This document shows positions 1 through 44,969 of a stretch of 45,169 bases of DNA, in pieces. Position numbers and translations under genes: made by a program. Location of the stretch: assembly GCA_032358255.1 (NCBI GenBank), contig JAULBX010026619.1, forward strand, positions 1 through 45,169. The letters are read 5' to 3'. The DNA comes from Heterotrichella gracilis (taxonomy: Eukaryota; Sar; Xanthophyceae; Tribonematales; Xanthonemataceae). Position 1 is the first letter of the stretch, and each line of letters opens with the position of its first letter. A model generated the notes under the pieces. It had not been told where the DNA came from. It saw nothing but the letters and a program-made list of their open reading frames with translations, and ran no database searches.

Positions 1-471
1 CCCTTGCTTAGTTGAACTCAAGACTCAACTCAAACTCAGGTGCTGAGCCAACGGCTGGGTCGACCGTTGGAGGGGGCTTAGGGCTTAGGGTTGAGTGTAT
101 AGCATATTCGACCAGCTTGTGGTATGTTCATCCTGGACGCTCTAAGCTAGGGTTTAGGGTCATCGACCGCTGTATTTGCTTACATCATAGTCTTTTCAAT
201 CTGGCAACGTTGCACCCTACACACCCCTGATCTAGGGTTTAGGGTCATCGACCCCGCATGCGGTCAGGTCATATTTTACCTATCACGGCGTATACACGCT
301 GGTATACACGGTGTGGGGCCCTAGCTTGCACACCTTACAGCACCCTATGTTTTGTATGCCGGCATGTACGCCTTCCGCCTGACCGTCACCAACTGGCTGG
401 GCAAGACCGCCATCGTACCACCATAGTTAAAAACCCTAATCTGGAACCCTAAGAAACCCTCCCGTTCACAG
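1..471. other. Intronic DNA upstream of the first resolved exon of the REJ-like gene
   Basis: No convincing coding exon is visible here. The stretch holds several telomere-like units (around 75-95, 148-162 and 232-245) and a decayed copy (about 353-415) of the exon start at 472. The gene to the right therefore enters the window from the left inside an intron, and its 5' exons and signal peptide lie outside. Confidence 0.5.
353..415 (+). repeat. Decayed copy of exon start at 472
   Basis: About 60 bases matching 475-537 with substitutions (same AGMYAF.LTVTNWLG-type coding content), lying upstream of the functional acceptor. It has no preserved CAG acceptor. Confidence 0.7.
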
Positions 472-3400
472 GCCGGCATGTACGCATTCCAGCTGACCGT
501 CACCAACTGGCTAGGCCAGAGCGCCATGCGCGTGGCATACATGCAGAAGGTGGGGTCACCGGTACCCACGGTGTCCATCGCTGGGGGCAGCAGCCAGGGA
601 TTTGTGATCGCACAAGGGATCAGGGTTATGACGATCATTAACGTCAACACCATCTGCCCAGGTGCGTGGTAGGGTGGTGGTGGCGGTGGTGGTGTGGGGC
701 CGGTGCTGGTGGTGGTGGTTTTGCCCATTGGCGCCTAGTTGCAACTGCAATGTGTGGTGTTGTGGGTGTGGTGGCGAGAACCTTGCAGATCCGTTGCCAA
801 CAGCAATTTGTGTGTCTAAACTAAATTAAATTAAATTGAATTAAATAAATGCAGTAAAGGGCAGTGCATATACACGTTAGTATGGGAATTCAACCCCAAC
901 CCCAGAATTCCCATTCAACCCCCACGCAGGCTTTCAAGTCCTATACAGCTCTAAACCTTTGCCTCATTGGAAATTTGTCCCCCAATTTTTGCTCCTATTT
1001 CACCCCCCTCCGACATTTCCTGCAGGCTCCCAGGTTCTGTACTACTGGACCTTTGCCCCCGACTCCGCCTCTGTGTTTGACAGCGGGAGCTTCTCTGCAT
1101 CTCGCAAGGACCTGGTAGTCAAGGGGCCAGTGCCGCTAGCCACCCCTTTTGCAACATACAAGATGGTGTTCTCCACATGGCTGGCGGTGAGGATATGAAG
1201 ACTGTCAATTGTGTTAAATGTCGGGTTTATCATGGTTGCCATGCGTGCTTTTTCCTCTTTCAACCGTCCCTAAAGATCGAAAAGAAATTGCAAAAACATC
1301 ACACAAGGACCTGGTGGTCAAGGGGCCGGTGCCGCTAGCCACCCCCTTTGCAACGTACAAGGTGGTGTTCTCCACATGGCTGGCGGTGAGGATCTATGAC
1401 ATTCAACCGTATCAAATGTTAGATTTATCATGGTTGCTGTGTGTGCACTACAAATCTGCTGCTGTTTCACCAGCCCAAAAAATCCTTCAGATGCCGCCAG
1501 ACCCCTAACACCAGACCCTTCAAAGGCCTTCAAATTAACCCCACCATACCCTCCAAAACCCCTCCAACCCCACCCACAGGGTTCCGCCTCCACCGCCACC
1601 ACCAACGTCACCCTCACCGCCGCAGCCTCCCCCCTCTCCGCCGCCATCACCGGCCCCTCGGGCGACGTCCCAGACACAGCCACGGTTACCCTGGATGGGG
1701 TAAACAGCCTCGACCCAGACGACCCTGGCAATACCCTACTGCCCATGGCCTATACCTGGACGTGTGTGCGCATGGATGCTCAAAGGAACAAGGCACCTTG
1801 CTTCAATGGCACCACTGATGCGGTGGTTGGGGCCACCACGTATACCATAGGGAACGGCACGATTGCAGGTGCGGTGTGGGGCTGGAGGGTGGGTGTGAAG
1901 GGTGAATAGGTAATACACAGTTTGGCGCATTTGTGGTGTGTTTGCCCAAGGCTGGCGGCTGTCTGGCTCCATCGCTGAAAATCCCGGTACTACGGTTGTT
2001 ATACTGATCCTTGACACGTGTAATTTGAGGTTGGCGCTCTCTGAGTCTGTCCCTTCCTCGACCAATGTCCTCATACTTGAGACGAGGAGTGTAGTCATGT
2101 GAATGCATTTACCTCCACCTACATCGATTGGTGCATGTTGATGTAGCCATATTTCCTCCCCACCAGGCTCCGACTCCTACTTCTACCTCATCACCCTGGT
2201 GGTATCCAAGGGCAACCAAACCCTAGGAACCCTACGCACAGACACAACAGCAACCGTGCTGCGCATCAGGAGCGCCAGGCCAAACAGGCCAGCACCGCCC
2301 TTGGGGGCAATCAGGTGTGTGGGGTGGGCAGCAAAACCCTACCAAAACCCTGTGAAAACCCTGTAAACCCAGGCCAATGTCCCCTGTAGACCTTTAACAA
2401 TATACCAAAACCCTAGGACCCATATGTACCAAGACTGATCCTGCGGATCAGATGTGGCTTAAAACTCTATCAAAACCCTAGCGATGCCCTGTCAAAACCC
2501 TACCGATACTCAGGAATCCTACAAACACACACCACCGCCACGATGCTGGTCAAGCAGGAGCGCCACCCAAAACAGGGTGGGGTTTGGTAGGGTTTTGTGC
2601 AGGTCCTCGGTAGCAATTAAGTCAGGCTTGCAGACCCTGACGTAACCCTTCTCAAACCCTAACCTAGCCCTAACCAAACCCTAATCCCCTCCCCCCAGGC
2701 GTATATGCCCCTCCACCTGCCCCAAGACCCACCCCACCACCGAGCCCCTGCGCCTGGCATACATCCAGGAGGGCACACCCCGGGGACTGGCATTCTCATG
2801 GTGGTCATCCAACATAAACATGTCGGCGCCAGGTGAGGCGCAGTTGCAGTCATCCTCATTCTATCCTCGTTGGTCGACTCGATGGACCTCCCGGGCACCA
2901 TATGTACAGGAGTGACTGCTAAGCGTGCTTTTGAGTGCACTGCACATGGTGTAATTTACATATTGGTTAAGTATAAACATATGTATATGTTGTATATACC
3001 GTACATTCTAGCATGGACCTTGTGTAGAAAACTGCTGGCATCAATAAAACTCTTTGAGATCCGCTGAAACATATCTCCCTGCCCCCTTTTTCTTGTAGGC
3101 GTGGTCACCTCCACCTCCTATTCCAACCTCATTATCGCACCCCTGGATTCCTCCGGCGCCAGCGTGTTTGCAGACGGGTCCACAGTCACCCTGTACGTCA
3201 ACCTCACTGATCTGGTCTACCCAGACGTCACCGCGCAGGCATCCATATCGGTACGGGGCTGGATTTTAGGGTTTTGGGGTTTTCAAACCTAGGGTTTAAG
3301 GTCAACTTGCAGCACCGCCATGGGTTAAAATCCCACTGACCTGGTCTACCCAGACGTCACCGCGCAGGCCTCCATATCGGTACGGGGCTGGATTTAGGGT

Positions 3401-6400
3401 ATAGGGTTTAAGGGTTTAGGGCCGCATTGAGAGGTCATTGTTCAGGGGTTTAGGGAATTGACTCAATTGGTGCAAAGTCACCATGTGCGTCAACATCACT
3501 TACCTGGTCTACCCAGATATCACTGCACAGGCATCCATATCGGTACGGGACAGGGTTGAGAGGTCAGGGTCTAGGTCACATGGTATAACCCGCTCTGTTT
3601 TCAACTCCACGAGCCTCAATGCTATTGCGAGGGGTCTGATTAAGGGTTCTTAGAATATGGGTTTAGCCTATTTTTGGATCTGTTTTCAGCATGCCAGCAC
3701 ATACCATCTTTGGCAATCCAGTGGCGCATTTGTGAGTTGCACATAAATCAGGCTTGCATAACCCCATCTGATTTAGGCGCCCTACCCAGCCCTGCTCCAC
3801 TCCATCCTCCGCCCCACAGGTGGACATGAACCGGCGCCCCATCTGCACTGCCACCGCCCCCTCCACCTGCCTCACAGCCTCGCCATCCACTGGCCCCGCC
3901 CTCACCACTGCATTCACCCTCACCGCCAGCGGCTGGTCGGACGATGACCCAATCTCGTTTGAGTTTGGGACCGTCAGCCCGGCGGGGATAAGGTGGGGGG
4001 CGGGGTTCAGGGTTTAGGATTTAGGGTTTGCGGAACAGGGTTAGGGTTGAAGGTTTGGAGCTTAGGGTTTGGGAGTGTCAACCCCACTGGGACAAGGTGT
4101 CGGGGGCTTTTTGGCTGTAGGGTGTAGGGCTTGGGAGTGTTAGCCCGGCAAGGACAAGATGCGGGTAGTGATTAGGGTTTGGAAGTGTGAACCTGGCGGG
4201 GACAAAGTGTGGGTGGTTGTGGAATGGGGAAGGATAATTAGTTACTTAGTCACATGCATTCCAGCAATACAGCCAGATTAGCAGTCAGCGGAATGGGGCA
4301 GGATACTTCGAAATAATACCAGAAAGCAAAACCTCTTTTGCTGCATTTGATCACAGCCCTAAGGTCAGTGCTTGTGTCAAAATAGAGCGTTTTACAAGGG
4401 GGGGCGGTTGCATTGAATCAGATACGACTAGTGGTAGACGAGGACGAGGCAATGCCCAAATTCCCGTCTATGACCCACAAATATTGGGTTTGGGTCATCC
4501 AGCATAATCCAACAATTATACAAATTTGTTTGTTAACATTGACCTCCCCGTCTTAGGAGCATCTTCATCCGCGACTCCCCCTCCAACTCCTACGCCTTCG
4601 GTCAAGGCTCACTCCTCCCTGGCCCAGCCTCAGCAAACTACTCCACCACCCTCTACGCATGCGCAAGGGATGCATTCTCAGCCGTCTCCTGCACCCAGAC
4701 AAGCGTCAGACCCACACCGGTGCTGGCTGCGGCTGTGGATGCGACCATGGTGGCAAATATCCAGCAGGTAAAAGTGTTTTCCCATTTTTATGTTGCTCTG
4801 CTCTTATTCTCTTCTATGTACATCTCATATCTTATTCTTAGAGTACATTTCCATGTACCTATTTCAACTACACCTATTTCAACTTGGGCTCTTTGATTCT
4901 GTTGTTTTCTGTAACCTTTATTCTTATTCACCTGCAGGGTTTGAATTCCAGTTTGGCAGTGGGAACCATGGAAAATCAAAAATGAATTTCCCAGTGTTAA
5001 CCGTCATGAATTCATCCTTTTCTTTTTATATGTTTCTTGTTTTTGCAGGGTTTGAACGCCAGTCTGGCCAGTGGAGACCTTGGTTCTATCCTGGGCAGCA
5101 TGCGGGTGGTGGCGGCGGCTGCAGGGGCGGCTGCTGGGGGCAATAGCAGCGGGAGCGGGAACAGTACCGCGGTGCAGGTGGGGGCCCGGGATTGTGCTAT
5201 TGGTTTGGTGTGTATGGGTGGAGCGATGAGATCTCGGCCTAAGCAACCCACCAAATGTACAGGCCGAACCCTCACTCAAACCCCATCCCAACCCTTGCCT
5301 CAAATGTATTACAGACCCTGCTTGCCTCCCGCGCAGCCTCCACCCTGGCAGACCTCACCTAGGGATCAGGCGCTGCCAACCTAACCAAAACCCTCCCAGG
5401 AACCCTCACTAAAACCCCAATAAACCCCCTCATCAAAACCCCATAAGACGTTTTCCGAAACCCTTATCGAACCCTTCCGTCCCCCACAGACCCAGCTGGC
5501 CGCCAGCGCAGCCCTCACCGTATCCACCCTAGCAGACCTCACCTCGGGGTCTGGAGCTGCGCAGCTGAGCAAGGCAGATGGTGTTGCAATCGCCAGCGCA
5601 CTCACCACCATCACGCAGCAGCAAGGCGTGCTGGGGCCGGCGGCGGCGGCAAATGCGCTGGATGCGATTAGCGGCGCGTCGCAGGTATGTGGGTGGTGGT
5701 GGTGGTGGTGGTCGGTGTATGGGCACTATTGCCAACACGGATGCAGATATATTTTTGTCTTGCTTATCCCATCACTCATACTGCAGTACCCACATGCATC
5801 AAATTGCACTGCATTTCCATTTCCACTTCCATCACATGACGATTTCATTTTACACACATTGCATGACATGCCACCCCTGTCGATGAGATCGCTGACATGT
5901 ATTGACGCCATCCCCCTGCTAACTTTTTAATCACACCCCTTGCCGCAGGTGATTGCCAGCTCAGGTTCGGGCGCAGCAGCAGATGAGCTGGCGCCACTGC
6001 TGGCAGTCACATGCACATATAACTCACAAGCAAAATGAAAAGTAACCGTTATTAAAAAAATGGAATGGTAAATGAAATGTATCAGGTAGATTACGATCAC
6101 ATAACATTACTCCCCTTGCTACAGGTGATTGCCAGCTCTGGTACGGGCGCAGCAGCAGATGAGCTGGCACCGCTGCTGGCAGTCACATCCAACCTGGTGG
6201 GGGCGTTCACCACACAGCTGGGGGGGAACCAGACAGGGGCGCAGGTGGGTGGTGGGGTGGAGGGTAGGTGTGTGTGTGTGGTGGGGGAGTGGAGGGTGAC
6301 CTTTAAAAAGCAAATTCACATGTGCAGCCTCATGCACCATGGGAGTGCTCCTTGTGCCACTGGCATGTCAGCCCTGCATGAAGGAATAGAAGCTTCATCC

Positions 6401-9400
6401 ACCAACTGCCAATGCAAGTTAGGATTTTGGGTCAGGGCTTGGGGTTTCTGCCACGTCCCAACCCTGTATCCAGTCCTAAGTATCAACCTAAGGGTTCAGG
6501 GCCTGAAATTTTGGTGTCTACCTCCTATCACTGCCATGCTCTCCTCTCCCAGGCCTCCCTCTCCTCCACCATCGACACCCTCACCAAGGTCGAGCACGTG
6601 GTGGGTATAGTGGTGGGTGCGGCTGTGCGCATCATGGTGGTGGGGGAGGCACCCACAGTGTTTGTGCAGAGCGGTCTGTCTGCAGCGGCACAGCTGGCAA
6701 CACCAACCCAGCTGGCAGGTGGGGAAAAGACTGAACTTTAAACCGTACCTTATAATTGAACAGGACATCCTGATGCTTTGGTGTGTTTCACCCCTAAACC
6801 CTAATAACCCAGAGCTGGCTATCAGCAGCGGCACAGCCCGTGGCGACACCAACCCAGCTGGCAGGTGAGGCCCTAAAGCCTAAAGGTTTGTTGGCAGGGC
6901 ATAAGAAGCAATGTTGAACAGAACCCAAGAAACCCAGCCGACATCTGCTTGGGTGTTTTGCAACTCAACCACCACCACCACCCACCCTCGCTCCCCCCAA
7001 TCCCCTCACCACCCACCCACCCCGCAGGCGCCACCCTCGGCTTCAACACCACCACCACCACCACCACCACCCCCAGCGGCCGCCGCCTGCTCCAAACCGC
7101 CTCCACCCCCGCCCCCTCCGTTACCCTCTCCTCGGACTTTGCCACTTCCTGCGTCTCAGACCCCACTTGCCCCACATCCGCTCAGCTGGCAGTGGCGTAC
7201 TACCAGCAGGGGGGGATACTGGAAGCCAGCCTCAAGGGGAGTGGGGGGGAGCTCATCCCCTCGGTGCCGGGTGCCAGCTTGGCCACAGGGTATATTGATG
7301 TGAGTTGATGGCGGGGGTGGACATTGTTCTACTAAAATTGAAATTAATTTATTTTTTTATAATTTCATTTTTATCTAAGTTTTTGCGGTCCCTGGGGCCA
7401 GCCTGGCCACTGGGTATATTGATGTGAGTCGGTGGCAGGGTGGGCATTGTTATATTAAAGTTAAGATTCAACTTGGTTTATTTGATGTATAATCTCCGTT
7501 TTTTCCAATACTCGCAATCCCCGGGGCCAGCCTGGGCACGGGGTATATTAATGTGAGCGGGCAGGGCAAGAGGAGGGAGGGGAATTTTTGTACTCACATG
7601 ATCAAATACTCGATATTTTCACGCATGCTGAACCACCGCTATCACCGCCACCGCCGCCATAAAATGACCCACCCTCCCCTCTACCTGCAGTTCTCCATTG
7701 AAAACTCCGATGGCAGCGACTCCTCTTTCACAGCCATAGGAGGAAACCCCGCAGTGGTTGTGCTCCCCTTGGGATCCACTTACAACGCCAGCCAGACCCT
7801 GGTGTGCATGCGGGTGGATGCCGCAACAGGTGCGGGTTTGACCTAGCTAGGGTGTAGCTCCGCGCGTGATGTAGCTACAGGGGTCGACCTATAGGGGTCG
7901 ACCTAGCTAGGGTCTTCCCATGGTGCAGGGTTTTCCTAGGTGACGCATGTCCCAGCTAGGGTAAATCACTGCGTGCGAATGGTAGCGGGATTACCCTGGC
8001 AATGCCCAACCATCACATGCACATGAATAGCGGTTCCCCAGCAAGGTCCAATGAGCTGCTATATGTACATGCTCAGGGTTGACTTCATACACGTTCTCCC
8101 TTGTAATCCCCTGTCCCCCCGCCCCACCCCAGGCGAGCTGCGCGGCTACCCCCCCAACACCCAGGGGGTGTATTTGCAAAAGGTGCAAAACGGGGCGGTG
8201 TACTGCCAGACCTCCTACACAGGGAAGATCCTGGCGGTGCAGTATAATGCCCCCCCTGCCTCGCCCCCTCCCCCCACCATCACCTTCCCCTCACCCCCTC
8301 CCTCGCCGCCCAAGGCCCCGCCAAGCGTGAAGGTGAGTGGGTAATAACACGCATTTTTATTTTGTTTTAACTTATTGTTTTTATAGAAACTTTCATTGAC
8401 AGGAGGACATATTGTAATATAATATTACTAATATTTGTGACATATTTAGAGCCATCCCTGTCACTGCAATGGCAAATCATTAATTGATGTATTTGTGTTA
8501 AAATAAGCACTTCTGTCGCAGACTGTCCCCTCTCCGTCCCCCTCCCCATCCACCACCCCCACCACCGCCAGCCCCCCACCACCCACCACTTCCTCCTCCC
8601 CGCCCCCACCCCCTCCCCCACCCGCCACCATCACCCAAGTGCCCAAGGTCTCCTTTTCTGCCCGCCTCACCACCTTCACCATCCCCACATTTGATAAGGC
8701 AGCCCAGGATCAGTACATTGCAGACATAAAGGGGGGCATTGGCGCAGGTAAGGAAAAGGGGCACATTATGGGGTCACATTATAGGGGCACATTGTAGGGG
8801 CGCAAAGGAGTGGCGCATTTGACAAGACAGCCCAGGACCAGTATATTTCAGACATAAAGGGGGGCATTGGCAAAGGTGGAAACTTGGGGCCCTGCGCACT
8901 TGGGGCCCTGCGCAAAAATCATGGTCGAGTGGGTCAATATACATTACATAATTGCAATTCCTATGTGAAATTTTAAATCATCCACATGGACATCCATATT
9001 CCACATTGGATATTCATATCCACGTATGCGCGCAACTGCAAACCTGGAGGCCTCAAAACTGGTTTGAAAATAACCATTACCCTACCTCTAAGGGTTATGC
9101 CGGGGGATGTGCAGTGCGTGCTTGGAGGCGTTGGCATTTGCCGCAGTGCCAAGGGTAATAAGATAATAATAGGACATATTACTATTGTATTACCCTTGGC
9201 ACTGCGTACAGATACCCCGGGCAAGGGTCTGACGTTACAGGGTGACAGGGTGTTTATATAAGGATCTAGGGTTTAGGGTGATTTGTCTTCTGCCACGATG
9301 GTTTGTAGCTTGTTTCCAGCAACTGAACTGGCCTAGTTGACCAGGCCTGCCCGTTCATGGCGCCCTTGTTTCACTGATGTAGACGGTTTCCTTGTTGTCT

Positions 9401-10963
9401 TTAAGCCTCTGGTGCATGTACAAGCGGTATTGCCTTGGTTTCTTGTTCTTCCACTCCGGATGCACACTGTGTGCACACTGGGTGGTGGAGCAGGAAGTCC
9501 AGGCTAGACCAATTGTATATGCATCAGAGGCACAACGCATGCCAAAGATAACCATTGCCCCTGGCCAGGAGAAGTTGTGTGCGCCAGCAACTGCCAGCAG
9601 GGGCCATGTGTGTCATTGTGTGGTGGCATCCTCAGAGTCTGCAATCTCTTGTGCAAGCATACACCACACGGGTCTGACTGATACATAAGGATGTGGCCTT
9701 AACTCACTCTAAATCCTTGATTCTGACTTAGGATTCTGATGCATGTACCTCCAGGGTTTGACTGCTACAGTTGCAGTGGATACCTTATCCCAATCCATAT
9801 TTACTAAAAAATATATTTATAAGGATTTAATACATTTATAATAATAAAAATGTAAACACTGAAAATTAAAAAAACATGACACCCTCACTCCTCTCCCCAG
9901 CGCCCCTCGCCACCCGACCCCCACCGCCATCCCCCCGTCATCACCATCACCTCCATCACCGCTAAAACATGTCTACCATGAATTCACCGCCATTGCGCCC
10001 TGTCAACACCCACCCTTTCACCATCACCATCACCTCTTTCATCCCCCCCTGCCTCCTCATATCCCCCTCACCATACAACATGACCCCCTCGCCCCCCTCC
10101 ACCCCAGTGTCCCCCACCACCCCTCCCCCCTCCGCCACCCCCCCTGTCGTCACCATCACCTCCATCACCGCTGGGTCGGTGGTGGTGGGCACTTCAGTAT
10201 ACTTCACCACAGGAGACGCTGAGGGCGCAGCTGCACTGGTGACTCAGCTTGTGTCTGACCCCACTGTGCTGCTGCCAGCTGGCACCTATGGGGATGTGAC
10301 TGTGGCGCAGGTGGCGGCGACTGTGGTGGCTCCGTCGGAAGGTGAGGGGTGGGGAGTGGGCGGGTTGGTGACAGGGATTAGGGTGTGGGCTCAAGACTGT
10401 TATCGGTACCACGTCTGTGGTGTGAGATGTTTTTTTTACAAATAAGTTAATGTTTTGATGTTAATTAACCGGAATCTGATAAGTAGATCATGCATCCAAT
10501 GTGCCCATCCAGCAGTTTATGTACCATTTGAGTGCGCACTCTACTTTGAGTCACAAGGATTGTGGGCAAAAGCTCGCCAAAGCAAATACACTCTGCTCCT
10601 GACCCACTCCCCCCCTGCCCTCCTGCAGTCCCCAACACCAAGCCTGCATCCACCACCCTCCCCATCGGCGCCATCATCGGCATTGCAGCCGGAGGCGCAG
10701 CCTTCTTGGCCGCCGGTGTCATCCTGGCGGTCTTCCTCATCCGCCGCCACAGAACCCTCATCCGCACCCCCACACCCCCCACCGGTGGGGCCTCCCGCAG
10801 GTCCAGCAACACCCACGGGGTGCCTCAGGTGGGGGCTGGCGGCAAGCGCCAGAGCCAGCGGTGGAGCAACGCGGGTGGGGACAGCCCCGAGCACGTTGAG
10901 CCGCTGAGAAGCAGGGGTGCGCGCGCCACTACCACCACCTCCTCCTCCTCGACCGAGGGGTAG
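472..10963 (+). CDS. REJ/PKD-like type I membrane protein, 3' 18 exons (5' end outside window)
   Basis: Eighteen exons join in one open frame with consistent phases: 472-661, 1026-1186, 1580-1868, 2167-2314, 2699-2832, 3099-3250, 3820-3992, 4557-4767, 5049-5177, 5490-5684, 6125-6244, 6553-6718, 7028-7299, 7691-7829, 8133-8332, 8522-8747, 10108-10341 and 10629-10963, about 1157 residues visible. The first exons resemble REJ (receptor for egg jelly) modules: beta-rich segments such as YAFQLTVTNWLG, a LDGVNSLDPDDP motif followed by YTWTC, and paired cysteines. An Ala/Ser-rich middle part follows, then Pro-rich spacers (exons 8133 and 8522), and a module starting VVTITSITAGSVVVGTSVYF that recurs in chlorophyte surface proteins. 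The last exon has one membrane helix (IGIAAGGAAFLAAGVILAV), then a basic stop-transfer RRHR and a short Ser/Thr-rich tail. The orientation suggests a cell-surface or flagellar-membrane ectodomain protein. No PLAT domain or TRP-channel part is seen, unlike animal polycystin-1. Family assignment is from motif pattern only. Confidence 0.75.
1297..1392 (+). repeat. Duplicated exon end plus splice donor (copy of 1092-1192)
   Basis: Roughly 95 bases nearly identical to the end of exon 1026-1186, including the CTGGCGGTGAGGAT donor. Spacing is about 206 bp. It has no acceptor of its own at the same place. Confidence 0.85.
3334..3549 (+). repeat. Two tandem copies of the end of exon 3099-3250
   Basis: Copies at about 3334-3392 and 3485-3549 repeat the exon segment encoding the DLVYPDVTAQASIS region and the TCGGTACGG donor. 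The intervening intron carries telomere-like GGGTTTAGGG units. The first copy is nearly identical to the parent and the second is more diverged, as expected for sequential duplication. Confidence 0.85.
3993..4556 (+). repeat. Long intron with telomere-like repeats and a dispersed short repeat
   Basis: 4005-4200 contains several degenerate TTTAGGG-like units and three diverged copies of the preceding exon end (GTCAGCCCGGCGGGGATAAG type, near 4075, 4137 and 4188). 4242-4275 holds a 29-base match, in reverse orientation, to 29508-29540. Confidence 0.55.
4931..4976 (+). repeat. Decayed copy of exon start 5049, with acceptor
   Basis: CTGCAGGGTTTGAA followed by a diverged copy of the exon beginning. 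The true exon starts at 5049 after TTTTGCAG. Confidence 0.7.
5312..5352 (+). repeat. Decayed copy of exon start 5490, with acceptor
   Basis: An acceptor-like ACAG is followed by ACCCTGC and CCACCCTGGCAGACCTCACC, matching 5490-5545, but the frame then meets TAG. Confidence 0.65.
5941..6012 (+). repeat. Near-identical copy of exon 6125-6244 start, with acceptor
   Basis: GCAGGTGATTGCCAGCTC and the following roughly 60 bases match 6121-6190 at about 95 percent by eye. The copy stops abruptly after the GCAGTCACAT segment and has no donor, so it is probably not spliced in. Confidence 0.85.
6823..6870 (+). repeat. Duplicated exon end plus donor (copy of 6688-6722)
   Basis: Repeats the ACACCAACCCAGCTGGCAG segment and a GTGAGG donor, about 150 bp after the functional donor at 6719. 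Confidence 0.75.
7388..7560 (+). repeat. Two further tandem copies of exon 7028-7299 end plus donor
   Basis: The junction GGGTATATTGATGTGAGT recurs at 7388-7432 and 7517-7560, spaced 125-128 bp from the original at 7264-7303. The roughly 80 bp of AT-rich intron after each copy is also related, so the duplicated unit spans exon end, donor and intron. Confidence 0.9.
8814..8879 (+). repeat. Duplicated exon end (copy of 8692-8751)
   Basis: The segment encoding FDKAAQDQYIADIKGGIG is repeated 122 bp downstream. The donor changed from GCAGGTAAGG to AAAGGTGGAA. Confidence 0.88.
9142..9206. repeat. Perfect 19-bp inverted repeat (hairpin/MITE-like)
   Basis: CGCAGTGCCAAGGGTAATA at 9142-9160 is exactly inverted at 9188-9206. 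The 27-base spacer is AT-rich and partly self-complementary. It lies in the long intron 8748-10107, which otherwise shows no exon. Confidence 0.85.
9891..9966 (+). repeat. Decayed copy of exon 10108 start, with acceptor
   Basis: CTCCCCAG is followed by a C-rich stretch and CATCACCATCACCTCCATCACCGCT, matching 10148-10172. In the phase required by the upstream exon it runs into TAA, so the exon at 10108 is preferred. Confidence 0.6.
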
Positions 10964-13853: not shown

Positions 13854-13935
13854 CTACGGGAGAATGGCCCAGAGACGCTGGTGGGGGTTTAGCCTGCACC
13901 AAACGCAATAGCGTGCATCAGTTGGACCGCTTACC

Positions 13936-16605: not shown

Positions 16606-17329
16606 ATGTCCCGCCCAAACCAAGTCGACTGGGAGAGTCTCCCTTCATCAGCAATAGAGCTGATCGCTGCAGCTCTGGTCAACAACACCGATGCCTTCTG
16701 GACGCTGCAGGACATTGCCCAGCAGGCAGCATCCCTTGCCATCGCTGGGCCCAACAGCCAGCTGTGGTCCTGCCTCTCCCAGGAGATCTGGAGCCTCCTC
16801 CATGTCAGACTCCTGGCGTTGCCAGAGTGCCAGCACATTTCCCTCCCCAGTTGCATAAACCTACACACCACATTCCGACAGATGGCATCAGCATGCAGGT
16901 CACATTCACCAGGGCGACTGCAATGCATATGGGTTTGCGTTGGGCAAGACTCCCTGGGAGTGTGAGCTGTGTCATCATCTATTCCTCAAGCACCGCAGGT
17001 TCCTTCGAGCCCTGGCCCTTGGTCAGCATCAGGACCAAACGGTGTTTGCCTCCTCGGCACACAACAAGTATGGGCTGAGCGACACACAGGTAGGTTTAGT
17101 AGTCAGTCATTTAGTAACAGGCCCAGGTACGGTACGGGCTGAGTGACACACAGGTTAGATAGTCAGTTACAGGCTTCCCAGCAGTATATACATGTCCAGC
17201 TGGAACGCATGGACTGACTCTCGACATGTAGAGTACAGCCAGAATAGCAATCAGTAATACCATTAGCAATCAGCTCTGCACACGCAGCTCTGCACAGTCT
17301 GCAAAATCTGTCCTGACACAAAACAACGC

Positions 17330-17385
<56 letters not shown>

Positions 17386-23224: not shown

Positions 23225-23343
23225 GGCGCAGTTCAACCTACTTTGCGTTGCAAGGCACCGGGCATGCAATGGCAACTTGCAACCAGTGGTCAGCGGCAAG
23301 TGGCACAGCAGGGCCTGCCCGGTGCGGCGCAGGTGCAGCGCAT

Positions 23344-23412
23344 AGAAGTATCCACCCTGTGTGATGCCCAGCTGGGGGATGGCGCAGCGCTGCTGGCAGT
23401 TTCATGAGGCGC
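23344..23412 (+). repeat. Duplicated 3' end of the PPTase reading frame
   Basis: The last coding bases plus stop (GATGCCCAGCTGGGGGATGG to TTGAGGCGCA at 23179-23230) recur at 23361-23413 with GTTTCATGAGGCGCA. The copy keeps the same relative stop position and lies in the presumed 3' UTR. Confidence 0.8.
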
Positions 23413-32508: not shown

Positions 32509-36341
<3,833 letters not shown>

Positions 36342-37376
36342 GGGGGATGGGGTGGGTGGTGATAAGGGTGCGGGTGCATAGACTGGGTGCTGCCATATCC
36401 AAGGCGGCATGGGGGTGTCTATAAAGCCAGGGGAAGGCTCTTCAGTATTAGTGGCTACCACAGTGGCTGCATTAACGCCAATGGCATGCTGGCATGGAAT
36501 GCGCTGCGAGCATGGTGGTCACGGTGCAGTCAGCGGCAGCTGACAAATTGTGATATTATCATCTGCGGCGATTCAAAAAAAAATGCCCGGCTTGTTGTGG
36601 CACTATGAAGTTATGGCACACAGTTTGTCCAGGCTGAGAGACTGTCAGGTGATGCATGGCCATATGGCCAGTGGCTTCACATTAGGGTTGGATGGGCACT
36701 CCAGCTCCATGCCATGGCCAGGCCCGCGGCGTGTGCAATGCATTCCCCTCGGCAGTCGACATGGCACATATGGTTCATTATGCTATAGCATGGTGTCTGC
36801 CCAAAACATCATGTGGCACCGGGTGGCCACTTGCAGGCAGGTTTCTGCATGATTCAATTTAATTAAATCATTGACCAGACTTGGTGCGCCATTGGGCGAT
36901 CAACTTGAATGCACGTGCGCCATCAATTGGATGGATGCACATTTCATGCAGTACTGCGCAGGCGCCTTGATGGCGCCGGGCTGTCACCATTGGTGGCATC
37001 AAGCAAACCAAAAGTTTCCAGAAATTTTGGTTTGCTTGTGACATGTCAACCCATGCCAAACACGTGCCATGGTTGTAAACCGGCGCAGCTGTGCTATTTT
37101 TAGTAGCCACAGCTGTGATGCAAATCAACTACATGCCACTCTGTATACAAAAACAACAAATCAGCCTGGATACCTTCATAAATTTGTACATTGTAGATTT
37201 CCTTTCTGCGTTTCTAGGCCGCTCACTGACAGCCACTGTGTCTGGCTATGCGCCAACCCTTTCCTCCATGTGCCAGCTAGACCGTCTGGCAATGCAGCAG
37301 CATTGCACCCGATCCAGCGCACACACCCGGGTGGGCCCATCAACCCCCTTTTTTCCACTCTCTCACAGCAAGGGCA
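36342..37376. other. Intergenic between convergent genes
   Basis: No gene supported. A 13-bp inverted repeat (AAGCAAACCAAAA at 37001-37013 against 37025-37037) is present. Confidence 0.4.
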
Positions 37377-38560
37377 TCACCAAGTGTCTGATGGAAATGA
37401 GGCTGAGGTACCCACATGGTCCCACAGCGTGAAAGGGCTAGACTCCCCCCAACCACCAGGCAGCACCTCGCGCAGGCTTGCAGGCAGCTCAGGCCTGCGC
37501 AGCGCCCTTTCCTTAGACCCACACTCCGCCACCCTCTTATTGAGCGCGCTCCCCTCAATAACCAAGCTCAGATATCCCATCCGTGCCCCTACAGGTCTGG
37601 CATCTGCAACCATCTGTTCTATCCCCTCGTGATACGGCCTGACTACCGATTCCGTCAGCTGCCTGAAGTCTTCATACAGGGTGTGTTTCTGGTAGAACTC
37701 CAGCTCATGCAGCTTGGTTGCAATGCAGTCTGGAATGCCGGGTCCCCCCGGGCAGTCTCCACACACAATGTACCAAGTACAGCGGCTATGGAGGAGTGCA
37801 GTGGTGACAGGTTGCGCCATGTTCTGTGCCTGCAGGGCTGTGGTCAGGTCCTGTGTGCGCCGCTCCTCATGCTCTGTTTCCCGCTGCTGCCAGAATGGGT
37901 CACGCTCCCGCTGTGCTGCCAGGTATGCTGCCTGCGTGCCATGCTTTGCCCTGGCAATGCGCCTCACCTCAGCGGCCTTGTAAACGGAAAACAACCTGGG
38001 GTGGTGTTCATCCACAAGCTTCAAGGTTTTGAACGTGACTGTGTGATGGGTCACGTTGCAAAGGTCCCAGTCAGTTAAGCCATATTGCTCCTTGGCAGCC
38101 GACTCGTACACCCTGCGGCTCGCCTTGTGGCCCAACACCAGCACACGCTGTGAGGGGTGCACGGTGCGATGGTGGAAGTGCTCCTGCATCTTCAACAGGT
38201 GGGCCCTGAGCCTGGCTGCCAGATCTGCCTTCTTGCCCTTCTTGGAAACCCCTATGCTGGCAGCAGCTGCTTTCAGCTGTGATAGTGTCATGGTGTCAGA
38301 GATCTGCATGCCTGGTGGTGGTACTGCACCAGGGCAATCTGGGAGTGGCGGCAGCAGGGTCCGAAGCTGCCTCCAGAGCTCTTGAGAGAGGTCCTTGCAC
38401 AGCTGGTTGTTGGGGCCAGCCAGTGCCACAGATGCTGCCTGCTGGGCAATGTCCTGAAGCGTCCAGAACGCATCTGGGTGGCTGGTCAGGGCAGCGGCAA
38501 TCAGCTCCAGAGCGGTGCAGGTATGTGAACTCCACTCCAGTCTACTTTGGCTTTTTTTGT
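37377..38560 (-). pseudogene. F-box/SAP-family protein, copy 2 (5' end damaged)
   Basis: A long open frame from about 38520 to 37377 encodes, in order: the second half of the F-box-like segment (ELIAAALTSHPDAFWTLQDI and LSQELWRQL), a SAP domain (LSQLKAAAASIGVSKKGKK, then LAARLRAHL), and a conserved block VLGHKASRRVYESAAKEQYG, LTDWDL, VYKAAEVRRIARAKHGTQ. A C-terminal helical region (IATKLHELEFYQKHTLYEDF) follows. Compared with copy 3 the initiator ATG is replaced (KAKVDWS against MAKVDCS), a linker is deleted, and a one-base loss shifts frame just before ELIAAAL (about 38518). The body is intact, so either the gene is recently broken or another start is used. The F-box suggests an SCF adaptor; SAP suggests DNA or chromatin binding (family knowledge). 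Confidence 0.7.
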
Positions 38561-39430
38561 AAACAATGCTGTAGACAAAAATTCAAGAACCTGCAGTGAA
38601 GCACAACTCGCCGTAAACGTACAGCAAAGCGTGCACCCACAGAAGAAAGTAACTTGCTGTGCACACAACTTGGTGGCAACATGATGAGTACTCATGATCA
38701 TGCTCAGAAGTTCCGAAACCAAGATACTTAGTTTTGGTTCCAGTGCGTGCGACACCCAAGGTATAAAGCTAATCTGCAATGTTGTTCACCTAAGTATTGT
38801 ATACCTAAGGCTATACGTCCGAAAAGCACCCACCAACTGGACACCAGGGTGGGTGACATGCATGCATTGCTTTCGGTACAAGATGACCACGCAGCTGACG
38901 AGATGTATATGGGCCTGCCGCAGCGCTGACTTCCAAGAACGGTGCTGAAGCATGTTATTCTCATCACCCACCTTTTCTAGCAACCTCCTGAGCATATTTG
39001 CAGGTGTACACGCTACTCGAGATGCCACTGATATGATGTGGGGCATATGCGCGGCAGGTGGCCGAAACAAACGCCTTTCTCTGCGAGTGGACGCTGATAA
39101 ACACACCGAGTGGTTGGGTTGAAGGACCAATAGTACAACGCTCTTCCTGCATGTTCACGGTGCTGTTTCAAAATGCCTCGAGGGGACTGCAAGTGTCCCC
39201 GGCTCGTCCCAACATTTCTCATTTATTGTATTGATTAATTGTATATTACAAGATTGAAAAGGGTTTCCATAAAATGTTTTGTTAGATACACATTTTGACC
39301 GCTACCCCGCTAGAGTGTGACAGCACACTTCCAATAGATATTCTCAGTATCATAACCACGCTCGACGCTCGTTTGAAGTCCTTTGAATAGCGTGATGCAT
39401 GTCTTGCCTTGCCTCAACCAATTAAGAGAT
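38561..39430. other. Duplicated upstream segment of F-box/SAP copy 2
   Basis: 38590-39190 aligns patchily with 41455-42010 upstream of copy 3: shared GCCGCAGCGC, GACTTCCAA, TAGCAAC, TCCTGA and GCTGATAAACA strings in the same order. The minus strand has a conserved WKSALRQ-type short frame in both. Whether this is promoter, 5' UTR or a former exon is unclear. Confidence 0.5.
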
Positions 39431-39434
39431 GTGG

Positions 39435-39535
39435 CTGGTCACTCTTCCATCCCTGTCCGCGCCCCACACACTTCCTTGCACCTCTGTTTGTGCTGGGGCG
39501 AGTGCGCATTCTGGCACTTCAAGTTGGAGTCGAAT
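39435..39535 (-). pseudogene. Remnant of MYND-finger gene end
   Basis: The minus strand reads LKCQNAHSPQHKQRCKEV, then a stop in the same place as the fuller MYND copy (CQNAHWQQHKRTCKEA, stop at 42614-42616). DNA identity is high over 39400-39510 against 42575-42690. The first zinc ligands are lost. Confidence 0.65.
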
Positions 39536-40151: not shown

Positions 40152-41420
40152 CTACTGCGCCTGACGAGCACCATCTGCCTCAGGATACTGAGGACCTCCC
40201 TCATTTTGCTGCCAGCCAGCCAATTCCATCTCCGAATCAAGGTACCGCAGCAAGGCGCCAATCCGAGGCTTGGGCAGCCCACGTGCGCGCATGCTGGCAG
40301 GCATCTCAGGCCTTTGCAGCGCCAGTCTCCTTGCCACCGCATCCAGCTGCAACGCATCCTGCTCACTGTATGTATGAATTCTTTGATGGTGCTCCCACCC
40401 ACGCAGGACCGCAAACTGCCTGCAGTCTTGGTACCGGGTGTGCTGCTGGTAAAACTCCATCTCATGTACCAGGGTTGCGATGCAGTCTGGGGAGGTGTAA
40501 GCTCTTCCTCGCATAACATACTTGCGGCAGACCCAGGAGAACAGTGCAATGGCGACGGGCTGAACCAGGTTCTTTGCCTGTAGCGCTGCGGTTAGCTCCT
40601 CTAATCGCCATTCTGCGTTCTTTCTCCCACGGTCCTGCCAGAATGGGTCACTGCCCAGCTGTGCCACCAGGTATGCTGCCTGTGTGCCGTGCTTTGCCCT
40701 GGCAAGGCGCCTCACCTCAGCAGCCCTGTACATGCGCCACGTGGTTTGGCTGTTGGGCGGATATGTGATGGCCTTGAAGGCTAGCGTCTGCAGCTCCCCG
40801 TCAGTGAGACCATATTTTTCCCTGGTAAAGTAAAAAAAGTAAAAAGTATCTTATTTTATTTTTATTCACTAAAAGAAAGAAAGAAAGAAAGAAAGGAAAC
40901 GCCCACAGGGCATAGCCAGGCACAACACACAAAATATTAGTAAGGTTGAGGCGTACACTCTGCGACTCGCCTTGTGGCCCAAAATCAGCGCACGCTGCTT
41001 GGGGGCCACTGTACGAGAGCGCAGGTCCTTGTGCATCTCCACCAAGTGGGCTCTGAGCCTGGCTGCAAGCTCTGCCTTCTTGCCCCCTTTGAAAACCCCC
41101 AGGCTGGCAGCAAGCCCTATCAGCTGTGGCCCCGGCATGGCGTCGGTGATCTGCACGTCTGGCGGTAAAGGGCACTCTGGGAGCAAGGACCGAAGCTGCC
41201 TCCAGAGCTCTTGAGAAAGCTCCCGGCAGAGGTGACTGGTAGAGCCCGCCAGTGCCACATATGCTGCCTGCTGGGCAATGTCTTGAAGTGTCCAGAAGGC
41301 ATCTGGGTGGCTGGTCAGGGCGGCAGCGATGAGCTCTATTGCAGGTGCGGGCAGGGAATCCCAGTCTGCTGTAGGTGTCGTTGCCATAGCAGGCGTTGCG
41401 CTGCAGTCAACTTTTGCCAT
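40152..41420 (-). CDS. F-box/SAP-family protein, copy 3 (most complete)
   Basis: Starts at ATG 41420 (MAKVDCSATPAM). It contains the F-box-like segment (DWDSLPAPAIELIAAAL, DAFWTLQDIAQQAA, LSQELWRQLRSLL), then a SAP domain (GLAASLGVFKGGKKAELAAR) and LILGHKASRRVYAS. After an intron of about 100 bp it continues from 40821 (EKYGLTDGEL, YRAAEVRRLARAKHGTQAA) to the stop at 40152. The intron contains an (AAAG)n/(TTTC)n microsatellite. The exact donor is uncertain (GTGTTGTGC near 40920 fits the phase). The block around GLTD.DL and RARAKHG resembles the C-terminal part of XPA-like DNA-damage proteins (tentative). It is in tandem with copy 2 and intact where copy 2 is broken. Confidence 0.7.
40873..40898 (+). 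repeat. (AAAG)n microsatellite
   Basis: Five to six AAAG units inside the intron of F-box/SAP copy 3. Confidence 0.9.
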
Positions 41421-42613
41421 CGTTGAAAGTAGGGGCGTGGATACACACTGGAGGACCTGCACTGAAGCACAGAGCGTAAAGCGGTCACATAAGAGAAGTA
41501 CCTTGCACCAGGAGTTGTAGCAACTAGGGGCTAGTTACCAATAGCCACACATTGGCAATGCATGCTGTTTGCTTCTGAAACAGAAATAATTGGGTGCACA
41601 GGTGCGACACATAAGGTACAAAAGCCCCATAAGCTCTATGCTGTTGTTGCAACTTGCTAGCAGGACACGTCTGAAAGCACATTGTACCCAAAGCTGTTTA
41701 CCAGCCCTGGCTATAGTGCAGCACGGCATGAACACGAGGTAAAAGATGGACCTGCCGCAGCGCCGACTTCCAAATACGTTGCTAAGGGTGAACCACGTCC
41801 ATATATCCACGCACCTTCTTTAGCAACTTCCTGACCAGAACTGCAGGGTGTACTCGACAGCAGGTGTCAGGATGCATGCATGCTAAATGAGCAGCGGTGC
41901 TTTCTGCAGAAGAAAATGAGCGCCTTGTCTGCAAACCGACGCTGATAAACATATCACGCGTTTGTATCGATGTTCCTACTGATATATGGTGTGGAACTCC
42001 AATATTTGAGCTCGTGCCCTGAGCTCGTCCCACAAATTCCAGCATTAAAGCTTGTCATTTACTGTGCAATTTACAAAAAAAATACATCTTATTTTGACAA
42101 CAATAAATAGGTGTAAATCCTGTCATTTACATATAACGCGTAAATACGATATAGTAAGTTATTAATAGTAACGTCAAGATTTTTTGCTGCCTGGACCATA
42201 CAAATGGAGTGAAGTCCATATGGAAGCAAAGCAAATGAATTCAGTGAGCTTGCAAATAGCACGAAATAAGAAAATCTTTTCATAACTGCCGGAGAGGAAA
42301 AGCACAACAATTACAGCCCTTAGAGAAAAACCCAAACCCAAATATTGACAGAAAAACAGCCAGCAGTGACAAATAGCCCTATATAGTAGTGCGCACCATG
42401 GCAGCAACGGGTGGTGCAACCAGATCACGATCTTCACCCAAAATGCAATTCCAGTCACCTAACGCCAACAACTACCGCCTTGCTAAATGGTCCGCCCAGC
42501 ACAACTTCAATAAGAGGTTGCCGAGTACCGTACCGGTAGTTTGATAAGATTTGGCAAGTAGTTCTGTGCAGGTTGACCATGCCTCGCTTCACCCAATCAA
42601 GAGATGTGGCTGG
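41421..42613. other. Upstream region of F-box/SAP copy 3, part of the segmental duplication
   Basis: 41455-42010 matches 38590-39190 as described there. 42060-42470 is AT-rich, with no supported gene. Confidence 0.45.
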
Positions 42614-44465
42614 CTACTCCTCCCCCCCTGCCCGCACCCCACGCGCCTCCTTACACGTCCGCTTGTGCTGCTGCCAGTGCGCATTCTGGCACTCACTCCC
42701 GCAGTACCGCACCAACCCACACGGGCACTTGCTTATGGAAATATCCCCACCGCCGCCACCCCGCATTTGCTGCAGATCCTCCCCTTTTTCTTCTTCTTCT
42801 TCTTCTTCTCTTCCGTATGCTCCCCTTGCTGCGCCATGCTAGAAACACCACGCCCTGTGCCACCACTGGACCCTTCGGCATCCTCATGCACGTGCCCGGC
42901 ATCTGTAGCATGTATACCAGCATGTGTATCCCGGCTTGGCGGGTGGCCATCATCTGTGGGTGCTGGTGTGGACTTTATTTTTCTTTTTCTTTATTTTTTG
43001 GGGACGCGCCTGCTTCCCCACTGGTGACTGGCCCCTCGGTGGGAGATGCCGCGCTTGCTTCCTTCCTGCTGGGTGGCCCTTCAGTGGATGAGGCTGGGGT
43101 GGTGGTGGTGGGTGTCCCACTGGTACTGGGGTTAGGAGGCTGGTCGCCTTGGGTCAGAAACAGCCAGCCGCGCTGCATGCTGCGCCAGCGCGTCTGCCTT
43201 CCAAGGGGGACACGCAATTGTCCTTGTGTGCGCTGGGCTGGGAGCAAAGGATGCGCTTTGGCAGCCAGTAGATGCCGCTTGTCCACCACCGGGAGTGCTT
43301 TGGTCTCTACTCGGTGCGGCTTGGTCCCCATTTGATGCAGGCGCTTCATCACCAATGGATTGCCCCCTTGAGGCTTCCAGATGCTGCTGGCGCATGATGC
43401 GTGTGTGCATAGCCACCATCTGAGCACCGGGTGGGAGAGTGTTAGGGTTTTTAGGGGATTACAGGCGTAGGGTGGTTAGGGTTTAGGGTGCATGGCCACC
43501 ATCTGAGCACCAAGGGGGGAATGTGTTAGGGTTTTTAGGGGGGTTCAGAGGTACGGTGGTTAGGGTTTAGGATGCGCGGCCACTATCTGAGACCATGGGG
43601 GGCGAGCTGTTTGGGGGTGGCAGCACACTGTGAAGACGTGCTGTTTAGGCTTTAGGGTTTGGAGGAGGTGGGAGGTGGCATGAGCACCTGAGAATCCTGC
43701 TTTTTACCCAGGACTGAAGGGGTCCAGTGCCCGCTTATGGCATGCTCCAGCTGGTTGAGTTGCAGGAATCCCTAGAGTACGCATGGCGACAACATCATAA
43801 CAGATGCGTGTAGCAGCGCTGCTCACCTTTTTCTTCAAATTTGGGGCGATCCTGAACTCACCCAGGTCGCGAGAGTACTCGACCTTGCCGGGGGGGGAAG
43901 TGCGTACTCTTTGGACCGTGGGGGTCCACGTAGAATGCCATCCGCTTACCAGCACTGCAACAGCATGGGTGTGGGTTCAGGTCTCTGAAAGATGTATTAT
44001 AAAAATTGAAGTTACATAATAATATCAAAATGACCTGACCGCACCACTGCCACCTGGCAGGAAGTGGCTCCTGAGCGTACCAACCCTGCCCAGTCCACGC
44101 CTTCAGACAGCAACGATGTTGCCAATAGGGTTTAGGTTTTAGGCTTTAACACCATCCCCTGACTGCTGGAGGTGTCACCCCAGGGGGCAATACAACTCGG
44201 TCACACCAAGTTAACGCAGTTAACAGAAATACTACCACTTTTTACCTGCTAGCAGGGGCAGGCCAAGGGCATGCCTCCTGCCATGACGCTGTGGCAGCAC
44301 AGAGGGGGTCCAGCAACATACAGCAGGTGGTCATGAGTCAAGACTCGAGACTCATGAGGTCATGCTGTGTGCATAACACACCTTGGCCACTTGACACCTC
44401 TGAGACAGCAGCGATTGCGACCAGCAGGTTCCACAGCTCCACACCTTCATGGCTAACCACGCCGC
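42614..44465 (-). CDS. MYND zinc-finger protein, multi-exon, only partly resolved
   Basis: The 3' exon (stop at 42614-42616) encodes a MYND-type finger: CPCGLVRYCGSECQNAHWQQ, then HKRTC. It is preceded by a poly-Glu/Lys stretch from a (CTT)n repeat. Further upstream on the minus strand are coding-like pieces: about 43420-43130 (MHTRIMRQQHLEASRGQ, then Ser/Ala/Pro-rich); 43708-43771 (FLQLNQLEHAISGHWTPSVL); 43827-43954 (KRMAFYVDPHGPKSTHF, then a frame change at a G8 run, then VEYSRDLGEFRIAPNLKKK); and about 44385-44465 (HEGVELWNLLVAIAAVSEV). Phases do not all fit, so exon limits are provisional. MYND fingers mediate protein contacts. I do not recognise the N-terminal part. Confidence 0.45.
42784..42810 (+). 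repeat. (CTT)n microsatellite coding poly-Glu on the minus strand
   Basis: About seven CTT triplets, translated as a Glu run (or Lys/Arg in other frames) before the MYND finger. Confidence 0.9.
43440..43660 (-). repeat. Tandem copies of a MYND-gene exon start with telomere-like units
   Basis: The exon-start segment (plus-strand GCATRGCCACCATCTGAGCACC) occurs at 43408-43430, 43490-43512 and, diverged, 43574-43596, at about 83-bp spacing. Between the copies lie GTTAGGGTTTTTAGGG and GGTTAGGGTTTAGG units. Confidence 0.85.
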
Positions 44466-44936: not shown

Positions 44937-44964
44937 CGAAAAGTGTCATTAATGACACTTTTCG
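44937..44964. repeat. 28-bp perfect palindrome
   Basis: CGAAAAGTGTCATT followed by its exact reverse complement. The core GTGTCATTAATGACAC (16 bp, also palindromic) is already present once at 44922-44937 in the LINE sequence. Confidence 0.93.
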
Positions 44965-44969
44965 TCATG

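Follow-up and report, generated by a model that had tools for sequence, protein, structure and literature searches.

Recurrent tandem duplication across exon-intron junctions is a known kind of event. In the potato RdRp gene, a tandem duplication across an intron-exon boundary has been described (Ma, Lan and Niu 2016, PMC4974935), and an 83-bp tandem duplication within an intron is noted in the same study. In mammalian cells, small tandem duplications arise when staggered breaks are filled in by CST and Pol alpha-primase and closed by end-joining (PMC8355091). Intron growth and the origin of exons are open questions studied mostly via rare single events, and a partial survey of titles and abstract openings retrieved no genome-wide account of such a pattern in algae. 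Here we describe a stretch of 45,169 nucleotides of Heterotrichella gracilis (hereafter, the window; contig C411 of the 68.5-Mb assembly), together with 23 other loci (216,775 bases, 217 kb), in which the density of junction-spanning duplications appears to be high.

Genes were modelled ab initio by self-training on the same DNA as was analysed, and the low-complexity filter of BLAST was switched on. For the comparison of direct and inverted repeats, strong repeats were those of at least 50 bits and local ones those within 1 kb; the threshold for non-redundant local pairs in the window was at least 45 bits. Since the gene models fuse intergenic DNA into long introns, predicted introns above 1 kb were excluded from the simulations, which assumed equal rates for the copied exon and the native intron and took their indel spectrum from aligned blocks. 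Two loci that are probably not nuclear genome (L019 and L026; GC 0.39 and 0.32; 3 pairs) were left out of the 69-pair, 23-locus counts, giving a total of 92 pairs (69 plus 23 in the window) in approximately 262 kb. They were included (72 pairs outside the window, 95 in total) in the class list by window and locus, the residual similarity, the block coverage and the mixture fit, as well as in the counts of splice sites, intron length, copied-site use, motif density, strict odds ratios and youngest pairs. The pair L005:9210/9416 was dropped because it spans a 100-N gap, and the coding repeat L012:3416 was kept in the mixture fit and excluded from the codon-position and exon-part indel counts.

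The initial annotation had reported intronic copies of neighbouring exon edges, and we found these repeats in the window where it had placed them, in genes of which the REJ, ACPS (PPTase), scramblase and RING (RNF121-like) ones were backed by Pfam matches. In the REJ-like gene (plus strand), a copy of the exon start 472-527 lay at 358-413 (spacing 114, 89%), by eye without the CAG preceding the exon start. The exon end with its donor at 1098-1248 recurred in the intron at 1297-1446 (spacing 199), with 93% identity over the first 97 bp (1098-1194/1297-1393) and 76% over 49 bp of intron. The exon end 3177-3265 had copies at 3306-3394 and 3469-3557 (the whole feature spanning 3177-3573), and the exon ends 6667-6724, 7262-7316 and 8688-8756 were followed by copies at 6810-6870 (85%), at 7386-7440 and 7515-7569 (spacing 124 and 129), and at 8816-8882 (87%), respectively. 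Intronic copies of exon starts were present at 5311-5376 (exon start 5486-5560, 76%), at 5930-6015 (67 bp of exon plus 19 bp of CAG-bearing intron; exon start 6106-6191, 90%) and at 9873-9963 (exon start 10077-10172, two frameshifting indels). The RNF121-like gene (plus strand) showed a similar picture: the exon end 33858-33919 was copied at 33953-34015 without the donor GT, the exon end 34821-34866 at 35018-35063 (91%) with the donor intact, and the exon end 35582-35678 at 35770-35866 with two frameshifting indels and a partial copy at 35706; an intronic copy of the exon start 36121-36217 lay at 35947-36044 (86%). The exon start near 34653 had intronic copies at 34262-34330 and 34466-34526 (34262-34717 overall), and the same intron contained a 91-bp tandem unit (34320-34410 and 34411-34501) bearing, by eye, an acceptor-like end.

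In the scramblase gene (minus strand), the exon start with its acceptor at 28351-28432 had copies at 28553 and 28753 (spacing 202 and 200; 28351-28834 overall), and the exon edge 30903-30951 was copied at 31059-31108, with residual similarity as far as 31188. The end of the PPTase gene and its copy at 23356-23416 occupied 23173-23416 (plus strand); the predicted donor was very weak (score -0.4), and the pair 23173/23356 may represent the stop-codon end of the gene rather than a donor junction. The copies singled out as near-identical, at 1297, 5941 and 35012, aligned at 93%, 90% and 91%, respectively. Regularly spaced triplets had also been claimed, and we observed them at 7262/7386/7515, 28351/28553/28753 and 43405/43488/43572, the series at 3177/3306/3469 being less regular (129 and 163). 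The 43405 series proved to be a tandem array (43405-43602, minus strand; unit 83-84 bp, 2.4 copies, spacing 83 and 84); it had been assigned to an exon edge of a MYND gene, but in the gene model it was purely intronic, and Pfam gave no family for the predicted protein, which leaves both the exon edge and the MYND label unconfirmed.

The duplication process was not confined to the window and was found in most of the sampled loci. Among strong pairs within 1 kb, 24 were direct and 6 inverted in the window (4 direct pairs lay further apart), as compared with 73 direct and 5 inverted in the 23 other loci (13 direct beyond 1 kb). Direct pairs thus far outnumbered both inverted and distant ones, indicating that the repeats exceed chance. 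Among the 405 introns with a length of 40-1000 bp, 78 contained a recognisable local duplication. The copied stretches spanning borders were approximately 60 to 260 bp long, and the unit sizes fell into two clusters, 60-130 and 165-215 bp, the latter holding 36 of 95 pairs. No pair was detected in 5 of the 23 other loci (six when all 25 listed loci are considered: L014, L016, L017 and L023-L025). The homology-defined HSP70 gene on C95 likewise had no pair in its 8 introns, suggesting that the pattern does not occur in every gene.

According to the gene models, 16 of the 23 pairs in the window crossed a predicted junction, 2 lay in exons only and 5 were non-coding; 49 of the 69 pairs in the other loci crossed an exon-intron junction, in agreement with the earlier observation that the units usually straddle the border. 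In every one of the 60 pairs with a single junction, equally divided between donors and acceptors (30 each), the copy was located on the intron side. The copies add look-alike splice sites, as had been proposed: counting only blocks that reach the site, the splice dinucleotide was kept in 52 of 60 copies (GT in 24/30, AG in 28/30), and real and decoy sites scored similarly. Selection on the decoy acceptors, 28 of 30 of which are intact, was considered and dropped, since a junction block by definition reaches the site. The predicted lengthening of introns was also seen, with a median of 380 bp in introns with a pair (n=78) as compared with 266 bp in those without (n=327), a difference to which the greater room for detectable pairs in longer introns may contribute.

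The pairs covered a wide range of identity, consistent with the graded ages that the initial annotation had described. Divergence between copies was 0.075, 0.071 and 0.185 at codon positions 1, 2 and 3, respectively, with 0.149 for the aligned portion of the intron (74 pairs), and 28 of 35 exon-part indels in these pairs were frameshifting. These data show that one exon is constrained and one copy decays almost freely. Changes at position 3 were 2.5-fold those at positions 1-2, as compared with the 1.6 expected for one free copy under assumed rates, suggesting constraint on both copies in some pairs. In the pairs classed as tandem (23 of 95, including 3 in L019/L026), homology ran head to tail over the whole unit, or nearly so. 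Among 40 spaced pairs, residual similarity continued on the intron side in 15 and on the exon side in 2, and in 6 of the 15 intron-side cases it lay no more than 20 bp from the expected offset. At 90% identity or above (15 pairs), the block covered a median of 0.49 of the unit, as compared with 1.0 in the simulations, and in 24 of the 40 spaced pairs similarity did not exceed the 5th percentile of the simulated values. In many units, the intron half has therefore lost similarity faster than simple models permit, which speaks against plain decay there. Large neutral indels were tried as a common cause of the partial blocks and the junction excess, and a simulation including them failed to give the junction excess. 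In a search intended for polarity, neither a second haplotype of the REJ gene nor a paralogue emerged: apart from one short hit, the 39 matches fell on the first 75-92 bp, which are a high-copy repeat.

It is probable, taking decay and break fill-in together with duplication, that local tandem duplications spanning exon-intron junctions occurred repeatedly and left these copies behind. The anatomy of the pairs shows that the duplications were local, recurrent and placed across the junction. As the codon positions and frameshifts show, the outer copy remains joined to the coding exon and is held by selection, and the inner copy is spliced out with the intron and decays almost freely. The intron half would lose similarity first because both intron copies drift, and the visible remainder, as is partly borne out by the pairs, would be the exon edge and splice site, often approximately 190 bp from the original. 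Introns would lengthen and acquire decoy splice sites, the use of which would nearly always lead to a stop or frameshift, and a minority of the copies may turn into exons. The primary event may be the fill-in and end-joining of staggered DNA breaks, for which telomere-type repeats close to the intron ends are a tentative candidate source.

With regard to the enrichment at junctions, it is an even question whether the duplications are simply uniform in position, with exon halves recognisable for longer owing to constraint on one copy, from which gene conversion may renew the other. This possibility concerns only why junctions are enriched and is compatible with the explanation preferred above. 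As compared with a simulation of uniform duplication and decay under the same detection, junction-or-exon pairs were in excess over the rest (57:12 observed, 258:200 simulated; OR 3.7, p 2e-5), and broader class rules gave OR 3.1-4.1 (p <=0.002), which argues against uniform origin, as do the 14 pairs of 90-95% identity, 12 of which lie at junctions, with one further pair non-coding and one confined to exon. However, under a stricter definition of junction pairs, the four decay settings gave a lower OR of 1.4-2.5 (p 0.23 to 0.005), the value under plain decay being 1.4 (p 0.23), and the six youngest pairs, with at least 95% identity, comprised 3 junction, 2 non-coding and 1 exon-only pairs, both in favour of uniform origin. 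The blocks end abruptly, with older, often collinear similarity beyond, and so resemble refreshed tracts, but no direct sign of gene conversion was found. Of the earlier claim of a duplication process at splice junctions, the recurrent process was upheld; a bias in origin was not demonstrated, the excess over the uniform-duplication null varying from OR 1.4 to 4.1 by class rules and being absent from the six youngest pairs, and the longer visibility of exon parts, which the initial annotation had itself offered as an alternative, accounts for part of the junction excess. It is unlikely that duplications are favoured near junctions by telomere-type repeats that lie 15-30 bp inside introns and break or get healed. 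In support of this idea, introns below 1 kb carried 4.03 motifs per kb, as compared with 1.13 for predicted introns above that length, 0.43 for exons and 0.57 for intergenic DNA, and the density was 7.7 in introns with a pair and 2.96 in those without; a motif lay within 10 bp of the intron-side block end in 19 of 120 cases (control 6.8%). Moreover, C-rich words were most frequent at a distance of 15-30 bp from either splice site, whereas G-rich words peaked near the 5' site only, and the intron part of the blocks had a median of 16.5 bp at donors and 19.5 bp at acceptors. On the other hand, duplicating doubles the motifs and shared motifs can extend the blocks, no motif was present within 10 bp of 101 of the 120 block ends, the youngest pairs lack an origin bias, and the motifs could instead have a role in splicing, presumably as G runs and a branch-point-like CTAA. 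That such repeats act as break or healing points and produce border duplications, many of approximately 190 bp (close to one nucleosome repeat), as a standing mutational engine is a quite doubtful proposal; if true, the engine would lengthen introns, seed decoy splice sites and yield an occasional new in-frame exon.

A rather improbable reading takes most pairs for tandem exon duplications, or for introns newly gained and in use, both copies being translated. The pair L008:4076/4286, with 10 of 12 changes at position 3, no indel and, by eye, a frame-keeping acceptor, is consistent with it, and its sequence makes it a promising candidate for the birth of an in-frame exon; the mixture fit gave doubly constrained pairs a weight of 0.22, 10.6 log units over none (assumed position-3 shares 0.85 and 0.447). 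However, most exon-part indels break the frame, in 53 of 60 cases a stop or frameshift would follow if the copied site were used and the copy read through, and the ATM-like copy in L009 would, by eye, duplicate GLGDRHSHN, which we take to be a kinase motif. Coding constraint on most copies was set aside in view of the frameshifting indels, the codon-position pattern and these 53 outcomes. The birth of alternative exons, as initially suggested, is improbable for most copies, although the approximately 22% of pairs that the mixture fit places under double constraint and the L008 candidate favour it. Mobile introns (introners) or another inserted element are very unlikely, even though each pair of copies encloses a spacer (40-189 bp among the spaced pairs examined), an arrangement that superficially recalls a long target duplication. 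In a comparison of the first sample's spacers with 202 kb, no spacer family appeared among the matches listed, the stronger inter-locus ones looking telomere-type by eye and the rest being short and weak; a 381-bp repeat region matched only itself in the whole genome, and residual tandem similarity was retained in 15 of 40 spacers. We give almost no credence to an assembly error placing haplotypes or reads side by side. The pair across the 100-N gap and the foreign contigs in the assembly speak for it, but assembly does not produce divergence that tracks codon position or frameshifts in one copy, and the copies span a wide range of identity.

One small genome would offer many events of every age, in which rate, size spectrum, decoy fate and exon birth would be open to direct measurement. 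As real and decoy sites are similar in strength, it also lends itself as a natural test of how a spliceosome chooses the correct one. The pattern resembles introners (PMC9860276) in being a large-scale change of introns such as occurs in diverse eukaryotes, and differs in that no element family was shared among the spacer matches listed (202 kb). The CST/Pol alpha-primase mechanism is comparable as a generally applicable way of forming short tandem duplications in direct orientation; that system (PMC8355091) was shown for induced breaks with 43-50 base overhangs in mouse and human cells, and many units here are longer, as the 165-215 bp cluster shows. As in the tandem-duplication model with Drosophila cases (PMC2891723), exon-intron structure is altered and exon-like sequence is left in introns. 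In that model the exon interior is duplicated and a new intron is made, whereas here an existing intron is extended, the intron number being usually unchanged according to the gene models. In the potato RdRp gene (PMC4974935), a single event, verified by reads and phylogeny, gave rise to a new spliced intron; in contrast, the present loci contain 92 pairs of all ages, with donors and acceptors equally represented and the copy mostly left in the intron.

When the window was compared with itself by blastn (at least 50 bits, near pairs being those within 1 kb), 24 direct and 6 inverted pairs of copies lay less than 1 kb apart, and 4 direct pairs lay farther apart. The repeat coordinates of the initial annotation, which had described decaying intronic copies of exon edges, agreed with these pairs. 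One of its regular three-copy series (3177/3306/3469) was present but irregularly spaced (129 and 163 bp), and the array at 43405 was recovered, although with no exon attached in our gene model. For comparison, 25 stretches of other contigs were sampled by stepped contig numbers or a random list, disregarding content; removal of L019 (GC 0.39) and L026 (GC 0.32) left 23 loci of 216,775 bases. These contained 73 direct versus 5 inverted pairs less than 1 kb apart, and 13 direct pairs more than 1 kb apart. Non-redundant pairs ranged from 0 to 8 per locus, none being found in L014, L016, L017, L023, L024 and L025.

Genes were predicted with a two-strand hidden Markov gene finder that was trained on the same DNA and combines splice-site weights with codon-periodic fourth-order emissions. 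To avoid calling a copy as an exon, each member of a pair was masked in turn, the member with the costlier loss was taken as real, and genes were re-predicted with the other masked. The resulting models contained 478 introns with a median length of 285 bp; 453 were shorter than 1 kb. The window takes up contig C411 entirely, in an assembly with 903 contigs and 68,512,230 bases in total. It is eukaryotic, since the gene finder yields intron-rich genes with clean splice signals. Pfam domains in its predicted genes were REJ, ACPS (PPTase), scramblase, RING and BTB, and the predicted protein over the gene annotated initially as MYND, one of seven submitted, had no Pfam match. A predicted gene of L009 encodes a PI3/PI4-kinase with FATC (ATM-like, by Pfam), and, among solved structures, an HSP70 gene of the assembly best matched the Hsp70A chain of entry 7n6g, a Chlamydomonas structure, which makes a green alga the likely source. 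Three predicted genes of the window (16606-18093, 36455-38987 and 40246-41456) share by eye the motif DAFWTLQDIAQQAA and appear to be paralogues. By eye, one inverted repeat surrounds a GC-rich centre between genes (24285-24355), and further inverted repeats lie at the contig end, where a 28-bp unit occurs in 2.7 tandem copies (44915-45130). A repeat of about 75 bp at 1-76 is present, 95-100% identical, at 39 other places spread over many contigs, and 17 of these start no later than base 4 of a contig; the assembly therefore probably broke at this repeat. Contig C331 (L027) carries an intronless dnaK of bacterial type; with the deviant GC of L019 and L026, the assembly seems to include DNA besides the nuclear genome of the alga.

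Outside the window, 69 non-redundant pairs were counted: 49 crossed a predicted exon-intron junction, 8 were exon only and 12 were non-coding; the 23 window pairs were divided into 16, 2 and 5, respectively. The tandem duplications are a real, evolved feature in most sampled loci. In all single-junction pairs (60/60) the copy lay on the intron side, at 30 donors and 30 acceptors; such an even split would not be expected of an RNA intermediate that has a polarity. Copy spacing formed two clusters (n = 95, including L019 and L026), 60-130 bp (43 pairs) and 165-215 bp (36 pairs), the others lying at 130-165 or 215-260 bp (13) or above 260 bp (3); the longer cluster held 32 of the 61 non-abutting pairs with an exon part.

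GT was intact in 24 of 30 copied donors and AG in 28 of 30 copied acceptors, which is not evidence of selection because blocks that lost the site would often escape the junction class. Copied and real sites had similar median scores, 5.5 versus 5.9 for donors and 7.6 versus 7.65 for acceptors. In 53 of 60 cases, splicing at the copied site and reading on would bring in a stop or shift the frame. The median intron length was 380 bp with a pair (n = 78) versus 266 bp without (n = 327), in part because a long intron offers more room for a pair. Overall, the analysis supports the earlier proposal that introns grow and acquire decoy splice sites.

The proposed bias to junctions was examined by simulating tandem duplications at uniform positions in the predicted genes, with constrained and free parts decaying, and detecting them by the same search. 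Under plain decay, the simulated blocks comprised 236 junction, 22 exon-only and 200 intron-only cases, and the observed ratio of junction plus exon to non-coding pairs (57:12) exceeded this with an odds ratio (OR) of 3.7 (p = 2e-5), or 3.1-4.1 once large indels were added. A strict count, restricted to one-junction pairs with a clear exon score, with other non-exonic pairs on the opposite side and L019 and L026 included, lowered the OR to 1.4 (p = 0.23) for plain decay; when large indels were included it was 2.0-2.5 (p = 0.005-0.03). Junction pairs made up 12 of the pairs at 90-95% identity, beside 1 non-coding and 1 exon only, and 3 of the 6 pairs at ≥95%, beside 2 non-coding and 1 exon only. 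Thus, there is a junction excess over simulation, but these counts do not establish a bias in origin.

Across the 74 pairs that include exon sequence, divergence between the copies was 0.075 at codon position 1, 0.071 at position 2 and 0.185 at position 3, with the reading frame taken from the real exon, compared with 0.149 in the aligned intron part; of 35 indels in exon parts, 28 were frame-shifting. Positions 1 and 2 are equal at about half the intron rate, and this fits the prediction for one free and one constrained copy; divergence at position 3 exceeds what that combination alone would give. A mixture fit (66 pairs) placed both copies under constraint in 22%, gaining 10.6 log units over none. 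The best single doubly constrained case, judged by anatomy, is the pair at 4076/4286 of L008, in which position 3 takes 10 of the 12 changes, indels are absent and the acceptor by eye preserves the frame; the stretch 4076-4397 (minus strand) is a duplicated exon end with the look of a new in-frame exon.

Simulated blocks at ≥90% identity spanned the whole unit (median 1.0), versus an observed median of 0.49 (15 pairs). For 24 of 40 spaced pairs, similarity in the intron half did not exceed the 5th percentile of the simulations, and these are the young-looking ones, since 23 of the 24 have block identity ≥85%. Of the 40 spaced pairs, 15 retained significant similarity on the intron side, compared with 2 on the exon side, and in 6 of the 15 it lay near the expected offset; at least in these, the unit was therefore tandem. 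The exon half looks younger than the intron half, possibly because the exon converts its intronic copy (gene conversion), because constraint is partial, because introns turn over fast or because filler DNA accompanied the copying.

Telomere-type heptamers were the top over-represented intron 7-mers, clustered by splice sites, and occurred in introns of the window (e.g., 3260-3300, 4015-4080 and 33745-33765) and of most sampled loci. Counted in both orientations over all loci, AGGGTTT/TTTAGGG reached 4.03 per kb in introns <1 kb but 1.13 in predicted introns above that length, 0.57 between genes and 0.43 within exons; introns with a pair had 7.7 per kb versus 2.96 in those without. The motif lay ≤10 bp from 19 of 120 intron-side block ends versus 6.8% of control positions; C-rich words peaked 15-30 bp inside both splice sites and G-rich words at the 5' end. 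Insertion of interstitial telomeric repeats during break repair has been reported in primates and rodents (PMC7215372). The motifs may be a cause, a record or a mere accompaniment of the duplications, and they may equally serve in splicing.

Taken together, the duplications are of a known kind and notable in amount, their density being judged from this assembly alone. A tandem duplication over an intron-exon boundary is documented in a potato RdRp gene (PMC4974935), intron gain by tandem duplication has been proposed and in part demonstrated (PMC3443670, PMC2891723), and fill-in of staggered breaks gives small tandem duplications in mouse and human cells (PMC8355091). No such density or two-sided symmetry, no graded decay with a codon-position signature and no telomere-motif link were found in these sources.
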